From Syntrophomonadaceae bacterium (GTDB lineage: Bacteria > Bacillota > Dethiobacteria > DTU022), in NCBI GenBank assembly GCA_007119965.1, contig SKOR01000021.1:1-45435 (forward strand): a stretch of DNA of 45,435 nucleotides, given 5' to 3'. This document shows positions 17,603 through 27,508 of this stretch, one piece after another; position 1 is the first letter of the stretch; every line of letters begins with the position of its first letter. A program made the translations under genes and the position numbers. Under the pieces are notes generated by a model. It had not been told where the DNA came from and searched no databases. It worked only from the letters and a program-made list of their open reading frames with translations.

Positions 17603-18286
17603 TTAAAGCATAATGAAATCATCGCCCAACTCCCGGTCCAATTCTTCAAGCTTCAACCCTTCGAGTGTGGTTTGGATATGTTTGTCGATTGCTTTCTCGC
17701 ACTTTCCGGCATCCTTTTCTTTAATGGCCCCGATAACTTCTTTGTGTTCATCATAAGAGGGGTTATGACCGAGCTGGTAAAAGTTTTCGTAGAGGATTAA
17801 ATAAATATGGCTCCTGTTAATAATACTGCTTAAATACTCTTCCAAAACCAGGTTTCCTGACATCTTAGCGATAGAGATATGAAAGTCGTAGTTAAAGTTA
17901 TAATATACCCCGATATCTTTTTTATTAAATGTATCAATTTCGACGGACAGGTAGCTTTCTAATTTGGCAAGCCCGCTCTCCGTAATATTTTCTATCGCCC
18001 CGGCTGCCGCCATTTTTTCCAACTGCGCCCGGACGGCAAAGGTGTCATATATTTCCCTGGTAGTGGGCTTAACGATGGAAGCCCCCTTGTTATTGGACAG
18101 CTTAACAAACCCGTCGTGAGCCAGCTTCTTAATTGCCCCCCTGACAGGCGTCCTGCTGACTCCCAGCTGTTTGGCAATTTTTGATTCCACGAGCCGCGTA
18201 TCCGGGCGGATGTATCGTTTAAATATAGAGTTTTTTAATTTGCCGTAAACGTAATCTTCTGCATTCATTTTGTCCAACAGCCACAC
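17603..18286 (-). CDS. GntR-family transcriptional regulator, FCD (FadR) type
   Basis: 227 residues. The N-terminal winged helix-turn-helix (about residues 10-75) contains RLVESKIAKQLGVSRTPVRGAIKKL, the GntR recognition motif. The C-terminal helical FCD effector domain carries the expected metal-site pattern (Asp/His in NYDFHISIAKMSGN and EHKEVIGAIKEKD plus a later His). It is transcribed away from the MttB/MtbB operon and probably controls it through the paired TTGTATAC sites. The start is ambiguous among GTG 18286, an internal TTG nine bases on, and ATG 18268 (MNAEDYVYG). The effector may be a methylamine or related compound; this is inference. Confidence 0.85.
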   Translation of the reverse strand: MWLLDKMNAEDYVYGKLKNSIFKRYIRPDTRLVESKIAKQLGVSRTPVRGAIKKLAHDGFVKLSNNKGASIVKPTTREIYDTFAVRAQLEKMAAAGAIENITESGLAKLESYLSVEIDTFNKKDIGVYYNFNYDFHISIAKMSGNLVLEEYLSSIINRSHIYLILYENFYQLGHNPSYDEHKEVIGAIKEKDAGKCEKAIDKHIQTTLEGLKLEELDRELGDDFIML

Positions 18287-18496: not shown

Positions 18497-19963
18497 GTGA
18501 ACAAGCATGATGGCAAAGAAGAAACTATCCTGCCGGCCAGGTATGATTCAAAATGGAACCTGTTACAGCAGGGCCAGGTTGAGAAAATACACCGCGCATC
18601 CTTACAGATCCTGGAACGAACTGGTATCCGCATGCCTCACGAAGGGCTGCAGAAAGCTTTGAAGGCAGGCGGTGCAAGAGTAGACCGGGAAACGAACCTG
18701 GTATTCTGGCCGCCTGAACTGGTGGAAGAATTGCTGGGCCGTGCTCCCCGGGTTTTCACCCTCTGTGCCCTTGATCCGGCCCGGGATCTGGTTCTGGATG
18801 GATCACATGGCTACCTCACCCTTGATGGAAGTGGCCTGCAGGTTATTGATTTTGATAGTGGCAGCCTGCGCCTGTCCACTAAAAAAGATTTGGCAGATGC
18901 AGTCCGCGTTGCCGACTACCTGGGTCAAATTGCCTTTCTCTGGCCTGTAATCAGCGCCCAGGACTACCCCCGGGAGGTCCAGCCTCTCCATGAACTGGCC
19001 GCCCTGCTGTCCAACAGTACAAAGCATGCCCAGGCCATGACAGCGGTAAATGCCCTGACCGCCCGCGGTTCACTCGAAATTGCCGCTGCAGCAGCAGGGG
19101 GGGAAGAAGCCCTTAAAGAAAGGCCGATTATCTCCAACTTCCAGTGCAGTATCAGTCCCCTCTCGTACGAAGGGGAGGGGCTGGAAGCCGCCTTTATCTT
19201 TGCCGGGGCCGGGATCCCCGTCGGCTTCATGACCATGCAGATCGGCTGCTCTACTGCCCCCGGCACCCTGGCCGGCAGCCTGGCGCTCGGAAACGCCGAA
19301 ATAATCGCCGGCATGGCCGCCCTGCAGCTGATGCACCCCGGCGCCCCGACATTTTACGGTTCCTGCGCTACCGTCATGGAGTTAAAGAGCGGCGGTGTAG
19401 CCTGCGGCGGCCCGGAAGACTTTGCCATGCAGGCTATGTCCGCCCAGATGGCCAGGCACTACAGGGTTCCGTCAAACATAGGCACCTTTGCCCCCAACGC
19501 CAAAGACTCCAACTGGCATGCCGGGGTCGAGAATGCCTCCTCGGGAGCAGCCAGCATATTTGCCGGCGCCGATATGATGTGCGGGGCAGGGCTCTTAAAC
19601 GGAGCCCGCATCTTCTCATTTGAACAGCTGCTGATGGACTGTGAGATATTCGAGATGCTGCGCAGGACGGCAGAGAGAATCGAAGTAAATGAAGAAACGC
19701 TGGCCCTGGATACCATTCACAGTGTAGGTCCCGGCAATCACTACATGGCTGAACCCCATACCTTTAAACACCTCCGCGAAATCTGGCAGCCAACCGTGAT
19801 CGACAGAAGCCCATATGAGAAATGGCTTGCTGAAGGGCGCAGGGATGCCCTTGAAAATGCCCACCGGCGGGCAGCAGAAATCCTGGCCAATCACCGGCCG
19901 GAGGTTTTAACAGCTGAAGTTAAAGCCGGGATAGATAAAATTATTGCCAAATACGAGTCTTAA
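18497..19963 (+). CDS. MttB-family corrinoid methyltransferase paralog without pyrrolysine
   Basis: 488 residues, a full-length TIM-barrel MttB-superfamily protein. It aligns by eye with the pyrrolysine MttB downstream: MARHYRVPSNIGT here against MARMYQLPSYLAG there, and AGADMMCGAGLLNG against AGANMIYGGGMLEM. At the position of pyrrolysine it has Ala332 (GTFAPNAK), encoded by GCC. Non-pyrrolysine MttB homologs such as MtgB (glycine betaine) and similar proteins demethylate quaternary amines to a corrinoid protein, so a quaternary amine substrate is plausible. The exact one is unknown. GTG 18497 follows AAGGGAG. It is the first gene of the operon. Confidence 0.88.
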   Translation: MNKHDGKEETILPARYDSKWNLLQQGQVEKIHRASLQILERTGIRMPHEGLQKALKAGGARVDRETNLVFWPPELVEELLGRAPRVFTLCALDPARDLVLDGSHGYLTLDGSGLQVIDFDSGSLRLSTKKDLADAVRVADYLGQIAFLWPVISAQDYPREVQPLHELAALLSNSTKHAQAMTAVNALTARGSLEIAAAAAGGEEALKERPIISNFQCSISPLSYEGEGLEAAFIFAGAGIPVGFMTMQIGCSTAPGTLAGSLALGNAEIIAGMAALQLMHPGAPTFYGSCATVMELKSGGVACGGPEDFAMQAMSAQMARHYRVPSNIGTFAPNAKDSNWHAGVENASSGAASIFAGADMMCGAGLLNGARIFSFEQLLMDCEIFEMLRRTAERIEVNEETLALDTIHSVGPGNHYMAEPHTFKHLREIWQPTVIDRSPYEKWLAEGRRDALENAHRRAAEILANHRPEVLTAEVKAGIDKIIAKYES

Positions 19964-20036
19964 GAAGTGCGGGGAACAGCTCGCCCCCGGGCGGCTCCCG
20001 GCTTCGCGGGAAATCATTTCAGGAGGAGGACAGATC

Positions 20037-21428
20037 TTGGAAAAACACTTTACCAGGATGGGAGACGGTTCACCGCTCTATCTTGACAGAAAAGAGATTT
20101 GCTCCGAGCTGGCTGAAGGGGTCAGTGATGCGGTGCGCCGCGGCAAAATTCCCCCGCTGAGTACAGAAGAAGTGGATTACCTGTTTGAAATAATTACTTC
20201 GCCGGTTAATGTCACCAGCGTGGCCAGGGGCAGCGAGACGGTAACTTCTTCAGATTCAGGCGCCTTCAAAATCAGCTACCAGGCCAACATATCGATGGAC
20301 AGGGCGACCGCTATCCAGGTGCATGAAAAGGTCCTCGGAGCCGATTCCCTGGACCTCGGTAATATCGACTACAGCTATAAGGCAGTCAAAGCCATTCTGC
20401 ACGACGAAGCAAAAGTGATGGAAAATGTGCAGCTAAATACAGTCATGCCTGTACTCTACGGTGCCATGCCCAATCTCGGCCTCTATACCAGGCCCGACGG
20501 CCCGGTGGAAAACTGGTCGGAACTGCTGCCCCGGGGGAAAATTGCCGAAGCGAGAGCCGCCCAGGAAGAAGCGGTCGAGCTGGCGGTTAAGGATATGTCT
20601 TACATAGCGGGCGGAATGTATGAAGCCGGCGCCGATGGAATGAATTTCGATACCTGCGGCGCATCGGGCGATGCCGACGTCCTGGCCGCCTTAAAAGCGA
20701 TCGAAGCGATCAAGCAGAAGTACCCCGGTTTGGGAATCGAAATGGGCATGTCCGGTGAATTTATCCTCGGCATGCACGGCCGGCTGGAATACATGGGTAC
20801 CCGCCTGGCCGGGCTTTACCCCCACCAGCAGGTAACGGTGGCCGAAAAAGCAGGCGTCAGCATTTTCGGGCCGGTAGTCAATACAAACAGCAACAAGTCG
20901 TTTCCCTGGAACCTGGCCAGGGCAGTAACCTTTATCAGGGCCTGCACAGAGGCTGCCCGCATCCCCGTGCACGTCAACGTGGGGATGGGGGTGGGAGCAA
21001 CCCCGATGACTCCTGTGCCGCCGGCAGATGCAGTCTCTAGGGCTTCAAAGGCCTTAATCGAGATCGGCAAGGCCGACGGGTTATAGGTGGGATCGGGAGA
21101 TCCCTTCGGTAACGAGGCAGTGCAGGAAGTAGCCGTTGGTATGGGTGGAATTCGTACAGCCGGAGATCTGGTTCTGCGGATGCAGCTGTCCAGGGGCATG
21201 AAAATCAACGAAGCCAAGGCATATGTTGCTGAAAAATTAGGAGTTTCAGTCCGCGCACTAAGTGACTGTACCGTGATGCGCGAGATCAGGCAAGACCTCG
21301 ACCTGGGTTACCCGATGCCTGAAGCGGGGGCGGCAAAAGGAATCGAGGCAAAAATCCGCATAGCTGACCTCCTCGGGATCAGGATTAACTCCGTGGAGCG
21401 CTTTAAAAGCAAGACCGCTTTACAATAA
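20037..21428 (+). CDS. mtbB: Dimethylamine:corrinoid methyltransferase with in-frame UAG (pyrrolysine)
   Basis: 463 residues if TAG 21084-21086 is read through. MtbB moves a methyl group from dimethylamine to a corrinoid protein. The N-terminus MEKHFTRMGDG, LYGAMPNLGLYTRPDGP, YEAGADGMNFDTCGASGDAD, GEFILGMHGRLEYMG and FGPVVNTNSNKSFPWNLARA are all MtbB hallmarks. The single TAG occurs at codon 350 in the context ADGL-O-VGSGDPFG, the same place as pyrrolysine in archaeal MtbB. The frame then continues through VGMGGIRTAGDLVLRMQ and LGIRINSVERFKS to TAA. TTG 20037 follows AGGAGGAGG (20021-20029). The total length equals the family norm only with readthrough. Standard gene calling would split it at 21086. 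Confidence 0.93.
21084..21086 (+). other. UAG pyrrolysine codon in mtbB
   Basis: An in-frame TAG between TTA (Leu) and GTG (Val) at codon 350. The upstream and downstream frames are the same and both halves are conserved MtbB sequence, so this is a translated codon rather than a stop. Confidence 0.9.
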
Positions 21429-21450
21429 CTGAACTGGGCAGGTGGTTAAC

Positions 21451-22917
21451 TTGAAAAGGAATCCGATTGCCGGCAGAAAATCGTTTATCGGGTGCAGCAT
21501 CAGTATATTCAGCGATGAAGACCTGGAAATGATTCACGATGCCACCCTGGAAGTCCTGGAATATGCCGGGTTGTACGTCCAGAGCATCGATGCCATGGAT
21601 ATTTATGAAGACGGGGGCTGCATAGTGGAACGGGAAAGCAGGATCGTGAAAATCCCGGCCCACATCGTCGAAGATGCGATCAGGTCTTCACCCCGCAAAG
21701 TATTTCTGGCCGGACGCGACCCCAGGCACGACATCGTGCTTGAAAACGGCAGGGTTAACTTCTGCCCCTTCGGCGAAGGAGTTATGGTTATCGATCCCTA
21801 TACGGGCGAATACCGCCAGTCTACCAAAGCCGACAAGGGCAACGTAGCCCGGCTCGTTGACGCTCTCGACCAGTATGATATGCTTGAAAATACCGTGGCC
21901 CCCAGGGATGTCCACCCCGAACTCGAAAGCCTCCATAACTACGAAGTGACAGTATCCAATACCACCAAGCATGTCCCCCAGCCCTGCCATGACAAACGTT
22001 CGGCCCAGCTGCTGATCGAGATGGCCGCCGAGGTGGCAGGCGGCAGGGAAAAGCTGAAAGACCGGCCTATTGTCTCCGGCTGCACATGCCCGCAGAGCCC
22101 GCTTACCATCTCAGAAGGCTGCGCCGACCCGATCATCGAATATGCCCGGGCAAATCTGCCCCAGAACATTTTGTCGATGGCCTTAGCCGGCGCCACATCC
22201 CCTGTCACCCTGGCCGGCACCCTGGTTACCCACAACGCCGAAGTGCTGGGCGGGATAGTCCTCGCCCAGTTAGCAAGGAGGGGAGCCCCGGTAATGTACG
22301 GCAGCTCAACTTCAATTATCGACCTCAGGCGGGCAACGGCAACGGTCGGCTGCCCCGAACTTGGCCTGATCAGCGCTGCAGTAGCCAGGATGGCCAGGAT
22401 GTACCAGCTGCCGAGCTATTTGGCCGGCACTTAGGGCGACAGCAAACTTTCAGACGCCCAGACCGGACATGAAAAAACCCTGACTACCCTCTTGCCGGCA
22501 TTGGCAGGCGCCAATATGATTTACGGTGGGGGTATGCTGGAGATGGGTTTAACCATGAGCTTCGGACAACTGGTAATGGACAGCGAGATAATTGCCATGA
22601 CCAGGAAAGTATTAGAAGGCATCCCGGTCAACGACAACACCCTGGCCGTGGAAGTAATCAAAAGTGTAGGCGCCCGGGGCCACTTCCTGGCCGAAGAGCA
22701 TACCTACAAAAATATGCGAAAGCTCTCTGAACCGGCCTACATCGACCGCAGGATGCGCCAATTTTGGGCTGAAGACGGCTCGAAAGACCTGGCCACAATC
22801 TGTGATGAAAAAGCCCGGGAGATCCTGGAGACCCACAAGCCGGATCCCCTGCCCGAAAAAGCCCACAAAACCCTCCTGGCCATCATTAGCGAAAGGGAAA
22901 AAGAACTGGGCCTCTAA
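21451..22917 (+). CDS. mttB: Trimethylamine:corrinoid methyltransferase with in-frame UAG (pyrrolysine)
   Basis: 488 residues if TAG 22432-22434 is read through. MttB demethylates trimethylamine to dimethylamine, loading a corrinoid protein. The N-terminal half has FSDEDLEMIHDATLEVLEYAG, and the middle has SPVTLAGTLVTHNAEVLGGIVLAQ. The TAG is codon 328, in YLAGT-O-GDSKLSDAQTG. The following ANMIYGGGMLEMGLTMSFGQLVMDSEI and C-terminal half are ordinary MttB. Archaeal MttB has pyrrolysine near residue 334. TTG 21451 is preferred because AGGTGG (21440-21445) lies five bases upstream; GTG 21442 is the alternative. It lies 22 bases behind mtbB, and its product (dimethylamine) is the substrate of MtbB. 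Confidence 0.93.
22432..22434 (+). other. UAG pyrrolysine codon in mttB
   Basis: In-frame TAG between ACT (Thr) and GGC (Gly) at codon 328. The same frame continues for 160 codons of conserved MttB sequence to TAA at 22915-22917. There is no ribosome binding site for an independent downstream start. Confidence 0.9.
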
Positions 22918-22920
22918 AAA

Positions 22921-22989
22921 GTGCCTGGGGGACGGTTCCTGAAACACCTTTTTTAGGTGCCTGGGGGACGGTTCCTGAAACACCTTTTT
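22921..22989 (+). repeat. Tandem pair of a terminator-like dispersed repeat
   Basis: Two copies of a 33-34-base unit, at 22921-22954 and 22957-22989 with a 36-base period. The core is GACGGTTCCTGAAACACC followed by a T run. The units begin GTGCCTGGGG. AGGTG before copy two can pair with CACCT near its end, so the element can fold as a hairpin plus T tract. It starts three bases after the mttB stop and may terminate the operon. Related copies lie at 34228-34297. Confidence 0.8.
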
Positions 22990-25779: not shown

Positions 25780-25815
25780 TTGGAATTAGATTATAAGGAG
25801 GGAAAAGCGGATACG

Positions 25816-26454
25816 ATGCCAGAAATCGTTGATAACTTCAAGAATGCTTTGCTTTCGAGTGACGAAGAAGGTGCATCCGCAATATTAGATCAATACCTGT
25901 TGAAGCATACACCGTTACAGTTTGTTGAAGAGATCGTGGTAAAAACGCTTGACGACATCGGCAGCGGCTGGGAAAATGGCGACTATGCTCTTTCCCAGGT
26001 ATACATGAGCGGCAGAATTTGTGAAGCCCTTCTGGACAGGGCTCTGCCTGATCAAAGCGGGCAGCGCTGGCATAAACCTAAAATGGCAATCGCTTTACTC
26101 AGCGATTATCACTCGCTTGGCAAAAAAATTGTTTACTCTGTTATGCGAGCAGGTGGCTTTCAGCTAGTAGATTACGGAAGAGTGGAAGTCGAAGAGTTGG
26201 TCGCCAGAGTTACGGAAGACCGTCTTGAAGTAATCATGATATCCGTGTTAATGCTTTCCTCGGCGCTGCAGGTTAAAGAAGTTGTCAGAAGGTTGAGCCC
26301 CCGCAGCGACAACCTGAAGATTGTAGTCGGAGGGGCGCCGTTCCGCCTGGATCGCCAGTTGTGGCAGGAGGTTGGTGCCGATGCGGTCGGTTACACGGCT
26401 TCAGATGCCCTCCATATAGCCAGCTCACTTCAAGGGGGTAAAGCGGATGAGTGA
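25816..26454 (+). CDS. Corrinoid (B12-binding) methyltransferase subunit
   Basis: 212 residues with the two-domain layout of MtaC/MtbC/MttC-type proteins. A helical cap (MPEIVDNFKNALLSSDEEG, VVKTLDDIGSGWENGDYALSQVYMSGRI) is followed by a Rossmann B12 domain. The cobalt-ligating motif DxHxxG is SDYHSLGKK with His99. The SxL (ISVLML) and GG (VVGGAPF) dimethylbenzimidazole-pocket motifs are present. ATG 25816 matches the family N-terminus; the GGAGGG at 25797-25802 is rather far (13 bases), and TTG 25780 is an alternative. It overlaps the next gene by eight bases. It is the only corrinoid carrier in the window and so a candidate partner for the MttB/MtbB enzymes. Confidence 0.88.
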   Translation: MPEIVDNFKNALLSSDEEGASAILDQYLLKHTPLQFVEEIVVKTLDDIGSGWENGDYALSQVYMSGRICEALLDRALPDQSGQRWHKPKMAIALLSDYHSLGKKIVYSVMRAGGFQLVDYGRVEVEELVARVTEDRLEVIMISVLMLSSALQVKEVVRRLSPRSDNLKIVVGGAPFRLDRQLWQEVGADAVGYTASDALHIASSLQGGKADE

Positions 26455-27508
26455 ACCAAAAATGACCTCGCTGCAGAGAGTGCTCACCACTCTCGGGCAT
26501 GAAGAGCCCGACCGGGTGCCACTTTTCCTGCTGCTGACCATGCATGGCGCAAAGGAACTGGGGCTCAGCATCAAAGACTATTTTTCCAAAGGAGAATATG
26601 TCGCTGAAGGGCAACTGCGCTTGCTTGAAAAATACGGGCATGACTGCCTTTACAGTTTCTTTTATGCACCTGTTGAAATTGAAGCCTGGGGCGGTGAAGT
26701 TCTCTACCAAGATGATGGGCCTCCCAATTCAGGACAACCATTTATTACCGATCCTTCAGCCATATCCAAATTAAAAATTCCCGATGTAAAAGAAACTCCC
26801 GCTCTGGCCAAGGTTCTGGAAGCAACCAGGCTGATGAAAAAAGAAATTGGTGATAAAGCGCCGATTATCGGGGTGGTCATGTCCCCCTTCTCATTGCCTG
26901 TAATGCAAACAGGTTTTGATGCCTATCTTGAGATGATTTATAAGGACCGGCCCCTGTTTAACAGCTTAATGGAGATTAATGAAGCCTTCTGTGTTAAGTG
27001 GGCCAACGCTCAACTTGAAGCGGGAGCAACCGCAATCTGCTATTTCGACCCGCTATCTTCTCCAACGATTATTCCCCGTGAGCTTTACCTGCAGACCGGC
27101 TACCATGTAGCGAAAAGGACTATTAGCCGTATTAATGGCGCAACGGCTACGCATATGGCCTCAGGCCGCGCACTCCCTATAATTGCCGATCTGACCGCGA
27201 CAAAAACTGCAGCCGTAGGAATCAGCGCCGCTGAGAATATTGGAGAGGTGAAGGAAGCCTGTCGTGGTAAGCTGACAGTTCTCGGGAACCTCAATGGCAT
27301 TGAAATGATTCATTGGGACCGGGCGGAAGTAAAAGCGGCAGTACAAAACGCTATCGCCGGCGCGGCATCCGGTGGTGGTTTCATCCTTTCTGACAATCAC
27401 GGCGAAATCCCTTATCAGGTGCCTGACGAAGTCCTGCTGGCTATCTCTGAAGCAGTGAACCATTTCGGTAATTATCCACTTGATTGGCTGGTGAAAGATG
27501 ATGACTAA
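26447..27508 (+). CDS. UroD/MtaA-type methylcobamide methyltransferase-like protein
   Basis: 353 residues of the uroporphyrinogen decarboxylase superfamily, in the branch that includes MtaA, MtbA and CmuA. MTSLQRVLTTLGHEEPDRVPLF is the typical opening. The gene overlaps the corrinoid gene, which argues for methyl transfer rather than haem synthesis. The MtaA zinc motif H-x-C...C appears altered: the first site reads THMASG (His236, Ala238) and the distal site DNHGE (His318), with no Cys at either. It may use another metal set or another acceptor. It overlaps the diguanylate cyclase gene at its 3' end. Confidence 0.82.
   Translation: MSEPKMTSLQRVLTTLGHEEPDRVPLFLLLTMHGAKELGLSIKDYFSKGEYVAEGQLRLLEKYGHDCLYSFFYAPVEIEAWGGEVLYQDDGPPNSGQPFITDPSAISKLKIPDVKETPALAKVLEATRLMKKEIGDKAPIIGVVMSPFSLPVMQTGFDAYLEMIYKDRPLFNSLMEINEAFCVKWANAQLEAGATAICYFDPLSSPTIIPRELYLQTGYHVAKRTISRINGATATHMASGRALPIIADLTATKTAAVGISAAENIGEVKEACRGKLTVLGNLNGIEMIHWDRAEVKAAVQNAIAGAASGGGFILSDNHGEIPYQVPDEVLLAISEAVNHFGNYPLDWLVKDDD

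Follow-up and report, generated by a model that had tools for sequence, protein, structure and literature searches.

An amber codon at the pyrrolysine site of a bacterial trimethylamine methyltransferase gene in a draft genome whose only pyl locus is decayed

Can an in-frame UAG be read as pyrrolysine (Pyl) in an uncultured anaerobic bacterium whose draft genome holds only a broken locus for making and inserting this residue? The reading of in-frame amber codons as Pyl, the 22nd amino acid, is known from methanogens and a few bacteria, and mttB genes that encode Pyl by an amber codon already have precedents in bacteria. The new and unexpected element is that the sole tRNA-Pyl and biosynthesis locus of this draft is broken while the enzyme genes are undecayed. 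The window, i.e. the whole stretch of 45,435 nucleotides that was analysed, is the entire contig C102; the draft to which it belongs measures 2.34 Mb in 120 contigs and is estimated to be 96.6% complete with 4.6% contamination. The features that bear on the question are the following:

17603-18286, minus strand: divergent GntR/FCD-family regulator (PF07729, PF00392)
18497-19963, plus strand: non-Pyl MttB-superfamily paralogue with no in-frame stop, ahead of mtbB-mttB (PF06253)
20037-21428, plus strand: mtbB, dimethylamine:corrinoid methyltransferase, Pyl type (TIGR02368)
21084-21086, plus strand: single in-frame TAG of mtbB, pyrrolysine codon (TAG column common to 9 of 9 aligned genes)
21440-21445, plus strand: probable ribosome binding site of mttB, AGGTGG, read from the sequence, 5 bases ahead of TTG 21451
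21451-22917, plus strand: mttB, trimethylamine:corrinoid methyltransferase, Pyl type, 488 codons including the UAG (TIGR02369, PF06253)
22432-22434, plus strand: in-frame TAG of mttB, codon 328, pyrrolysine codon (sequence, alignment with Pyl334, related loci)
25780-26454, plus strand: corrinoid protein of the methyltransferase-cognate type, downstream of the operon (B12-binding domains)
26447-27508, plus strand: MtaA/CmuA-like methylcobamide methyltransferase with URO-D fold (TIGR01463, 108 bits, cut-off 235)

The mttB frame starts with a TTG 22 bases past the mtbB stop, a position at which four of eight close relatives have ATG, and its sole in-frame stop is the TAG within YLAGT-O-GDSKLSDAQTG; the preliminary description had located and described this codon correctly. 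Read through the TAG, the protein matches the NCBIfam model TIGR02369 (trimeth_pyl) with 704 bits, against a curated cut-off of 525, over positions 2-469 of 469, and also Pfam PF06253. This bears out the trimethylamine methyltransferase identity proposed earlier, and the assignment to the Pyl-type MttB family is secure. MttB of M. barkeri (PDB 7xcl, 7xcm, 7xcn; PMC9842639) is a full-length homologue (phmmer, 411 bits), and alignment with this solved enzyme puts codon 328 exactly on Pyl334 (printed X) of 7xcl, i.e. at the known pyrrolysine site, as had been claimed. Gly110 and Tyr364, both reported to be invariant around Pyl in MttB (PMC9842639), correspond to Gly108 and Tyr358 in the window protein, and the equivalent of Met249 is kept as well, whereas Thr111 is replaced by Glu. 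Directly 3' of mttB lies a 36-base repeat, with GTGCCTGGGGGACGGTTC found twice and exactly, at 22921-22938 and 22957-22974 (0.01 matches expected by chance).

Directly upstream, mtbB scores 493 bits over its full length with TIGR02368 (dimeth_PyL; cut-off 369) when read through its TAG, and AGGAGGAGG is found at 20021-20029, upstream of this gene. The two genes adjoin in the same order in all eight close relatives, in one of which mtbB ends at a contig edge. The MttB superfamily also has members of the same protein family that carry a sense codon at the site, such as glycine betaine methyltransferase (PDB 9yce, 2qne). The gene at 18497-19963 is a paralogue of this kind: it reaches 427 bits with TIGR02369 and thus falls below the cut-off that mttB far exceeds, is 34% identical to mttB, and probably encodes a demethylase of another methylated amine. 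Similar genes stand at the same place in two related loci, L026 (79%) and L031 (60%). The divergent regulator is, by its position, a candidate for control of the operon. The corrinoid protein is distant from the curated MtbC/MttC models (TIGR02370, 71 bits against a cut-off of 215).

Ten relatives of mttB, eight bacterial (81-88% identity) and two archaeal (42%), came from a scan of genomes across bacteria and archaea. In all ten the Pyl codon is TAG, with no TAA, TGA or sense codon among them, which answers in the affirmative the earlier question of whether the TAG is conserved as TAG; distant non-Pyl paralogues have no TAG. Among 100 related genomes, 16 carry an mttB with a single TAG, and every one of these belongs to the 21 with pylS or pylD (hypergeometric p of about 1.5e-14). 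The remaining six members of the genus contain neither pyl genes nor a TAG-containing mttB. The preliminary description had argued that decay is an unlikely cause when two families are each broken only at their Pyl site, and our figures agree: the chance that the sole stop of both mttB and mtbB falls at the Pyl codon is about 4e-6, with a further factor of 1/9 for both being TAG, there are no extra stops, and selection has been kept.

The draft contains at least six amber genes, namely mttB on C102, C67, C73 and C44 and mtbB on C102 and C73, and in every aligned gene of all six gene groups the amber codon is kept as TAG. Because synonymous rates were saturated, dN/dS was replaced by nonsynonymous differences and by changes found in this genome alone at columns that do not vary in relatives. 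Such changes affect 63 of 1156 columns before the TAG and 27 of 482 after it (Fisher p 0.91), and the 859 post-TAG codons of the six genes contain zero further stops. For the post-TAG segments, an unselected divergence of 2% or more is rejected (P 0.0015). The amber genes are therefore under strong purifying selection on both sides of the TAG and have not decayed.

The pyl machinery of the same draft presents a different picture. Bacterial pyl genes have been described in the order pylTScBCDSn (PMC3941956), and one relative, G008, has exactly this order, pylT-Sc-B-C-D-Sn. The sole pyl locus of the draft, on contig C69 (L090 190-1648), is decayed. In order, the contig carries the terminal part of a gene for a corrinoid protein, the relic of tRNA-Pyl, a stretch of about 160 bases that includes a remnant of pylC, and then pylD, pylSn and topA; compared with the published cluster, pylD and pylSn still follow the dead pylT in the same order, pylSc and pylB have been deleted along with most of pylC, and what is left of pylC is some 22 recognisable residues matching PylC residues 258-280 of six relatives. 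The tRNA relic (C69:190-260) has lost U33, is one base short in the anticodon stem, has CCA as its anticodon where CUA is expected, and forms 19 of 23 pairs. It is not called by ARAGORN, and a covariance model built from ten intact tRNA-Pyl matches nothing else in the draft; the intact tRNAs of relatives score 92-98 bits and the relic 66.8. At the otherwise invariant or nearly invariant columns it differs in 5 of 59, i.e. 8.5%, a rough figure that rests on five changes and has a Poisson range of about 2.7-19%. In contrast, pylD (TIGR03911, 265 bits, the top score among all relatives) and pylSn (TIGR03912, 114 bits) are intact and above their cut-offs. No PylS(c), PylB or PylC above cut-off was found in the draft, the PylS search having been repeated with the protein of the closest relative. 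A mobile element as the carrier of the missing genes was rejected, as no PylSc was present among 72,556 plasmids or in viral contigs. The C69 pylSn ends in TAG (L002/L090 1646-1648), as does pylD of the relative G028 (L094 3475-3477), so that genes of the Pyl machinery themselves terminate at the codon they reassign.

The preliminary description had tied its reading to the presence of pyl machinery in the genome, and on this point the outcome is divided. Intact pylD and pylSn, together with the selection evidence, speak in its favour, while the tRNA is dead, pylSc and pylB are absent and only a scrap of pylC is left. The Pyl reading survives but is only partly supported, as it rests on machinery absent from the assembly.

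Did Pyl insertion outlast the C69 copy? Had the post-TAG segments diverged by the 8.5% of the tRNA, about 106 changed columns and about 6 new stops would be expected, against the 27 and 0 seen; even at the lower end of the tRNA range (2.7%) the unique-changes test gives P 6e-5. Since the post-TAG parts show so little unselected change while the dead pylT diverged, a functional tRNA-Pyl must have been present at another place once decay of the C69 copy had set in, and this selection evidence says that Pyl was still inserted after the C69 tRNA-Pyl died. In the known pathway, neither pylD nor pylSn can serve any purpose without pylB, pylC and pylSc; that both are nevertheless intact points to a Pyl system that worked later. 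A second pyl set that is absent from the draft is the most likely explanation, with recent loss as its main rival.

The pyl loci of relatives are informative in this regard. In G028, pylB-C-D-Sn are present, and pylT and most of pylSc are lost at contig ends. The draft of G021 contains two distinct pyl operons, one ordered T-Sc-B-C-D-Sn and the other Sn-T-Sc-D, the latter followed further along by C and B (L098, L099); their tRNA-Pyl sequences differ, which makes them a candidate for a naturally orthogonal pair. In G014, pylSc stands alone among unrelated genes (L105 4498-5331) and pylT-B-C-D-Sn lie together elsewhere (L106 5582-9189), with pylT only about 50 bases ahead of pylB; the bacterial cluster is thus divided in an unusual way. 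Taken together, the gaps in G028 and the arrangements in G021 and G014 indicate that drafts of this family drop exactly these genes and that two-locus layouts occur. Moreover, C69 begins within a corrinoid gene and C67 within an mttB gene, so the assembly breaks at such multi-copy loci.

Pyl has been reported to activate trimethylamine in the active site of MttB, from which the methyl group goes to the corrinoid protein (PMC9842639). In the mechanism that we propose, tRNA-Pyl(CUA) would suppress the UAG after being charged by a split PylSc/PylSn, with Pyl made by PylBCD. In full-length MttB the Pyl imine would activate trimethylamine and the methyl group would pass to the corrinoid protein; MtbB would carry out the same reaction for dimethylamine. 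Because the sole pyl locus in the draft is decayed, we infer a second locus as the source of pylT, pylSc, pylB and pylC. The identity of the gene, the exact site, the conservation of the TAG, its co-occurrence with pyl genes and the selection after the TAG are established at the level of sequence, and we consider it very probable that UAG 22432 encodes Pyl in a bacterial MttB and that these four genes come from a second locus lacking in the draft. What counts against such a locus is that intact pylT, pylSc, pylB and pylC are all absent from a draft rated 96.6% complete.

If the Pyl system had been lost very recently, C69 would be its sole remnant and the six amber genes would be truncated at the UAG but too young to show decay. 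The draft, with nothing but a broken pyl locus, and the six other members of the genus, without any pyl gene, are what this account would predict. It is nevertheless unlikely, since the divergence of the tRNA (5/59) is out of step with the few changes and lack of stops after the TAG, and since neither pylD nor pylSn is damaged. The system may still have been lost later, in a separate event followed by less than about 2% of unselected divergence. A misassigned C69 or window contig, which would make the broken locus uninformative about this organism, might be suspected from the contamination estimate and from the sister genomes without pyl; however, C69 carries the only topA of the draft, which is closest to those of three genomes of the same genus (85, 83 and 81%), and the window dapA is 88-93% identical to those of all six genus genomes. 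This idea is hardly credible, and contamination of the draft as the source of C69 or C102 was rejected on these grounds.

Could ordinary readthrough or some other suppressor tRNA instead place a different residue at the UAG and still yield sufficient full-length enzyme? The draft has no intact tRNA-Pyl, and TAG is still the ordinary terminator of 6 of the 32 window genes, so that UAG is ambiguous and not reassigned. On the other hand, the TAG tracks pyl genes perfectly in relatives and sits at the catalytic Pyl, where by the published mechanism any other residue would yield no enzyme; an ARAGORN scan of the window and of C69 found no suppressor tRNA; and 3' of the mttB TAG there is no PYLIS-like structured insertion signal, with no fold beyond that of shuffled sequences (z 0.16) and no convincing covariation. 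We regard such readthrough as very unlikely, and the lack of a structured signal fits plain suppression by tRNA-Pyl. Translation with table 11 does give a 327-codon fragment and a remainder, as an ordinary pseudogene or a sequencing error would, yet the identical TAG in ten of ten independent loci, the TAGs at the Pyl columns of five further genes of the draft and the strong purifying selection on either side refute both ideas, to which we assign next to no weight.

Returning to amber-encoded Pyl, an amber codon at the same place of mttB together with a split synthetase, as found here, is known from Acetohalobium arabaticum, marine Deltaproteobacteria and gut bacteria (PMC7593587, PMC8318568), in contrast to the single-chain PylS of the archaeal methanogen M. 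barkeri. The positions agree closely, with the amber codon at 327 of 485 in the deltaproteobacterial protein and at 328 of 488 in ours, but the Deltaproteobacteria were reported with a full pyl set (PMC7593587, PMC8318568), whereas here the sole assembled pyl locus is decayed. In the open-licence literature we found no earlier report of pyrrolysine in this bacterial family. A bolder reading, which we think rather unlikely, is that this genome is losing the 22nd amino acid, with no tRNA-Pyl or synthetase left to it but pylD and pylSn undamaged, and that its six methyltransferases have just been stranded; in a milder form, a second and physically separate half-set of pylT, pylSc, pylB and pylC would act in trans with pylD and pylSn of C69. 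Few bacteria are known to use Pyl, and the mttB described here extends their list by an uncultured Bacillota family in which a single genome can have as many as several methyltransferases with amber codons. Each amber methyltransferase gene of this kind will be called as two fragments by standard annotation. A decayed pyl locus alongside undecayed amber genes represents an intermediate stage that is rare where an extension of the genetic code is gained or lost.
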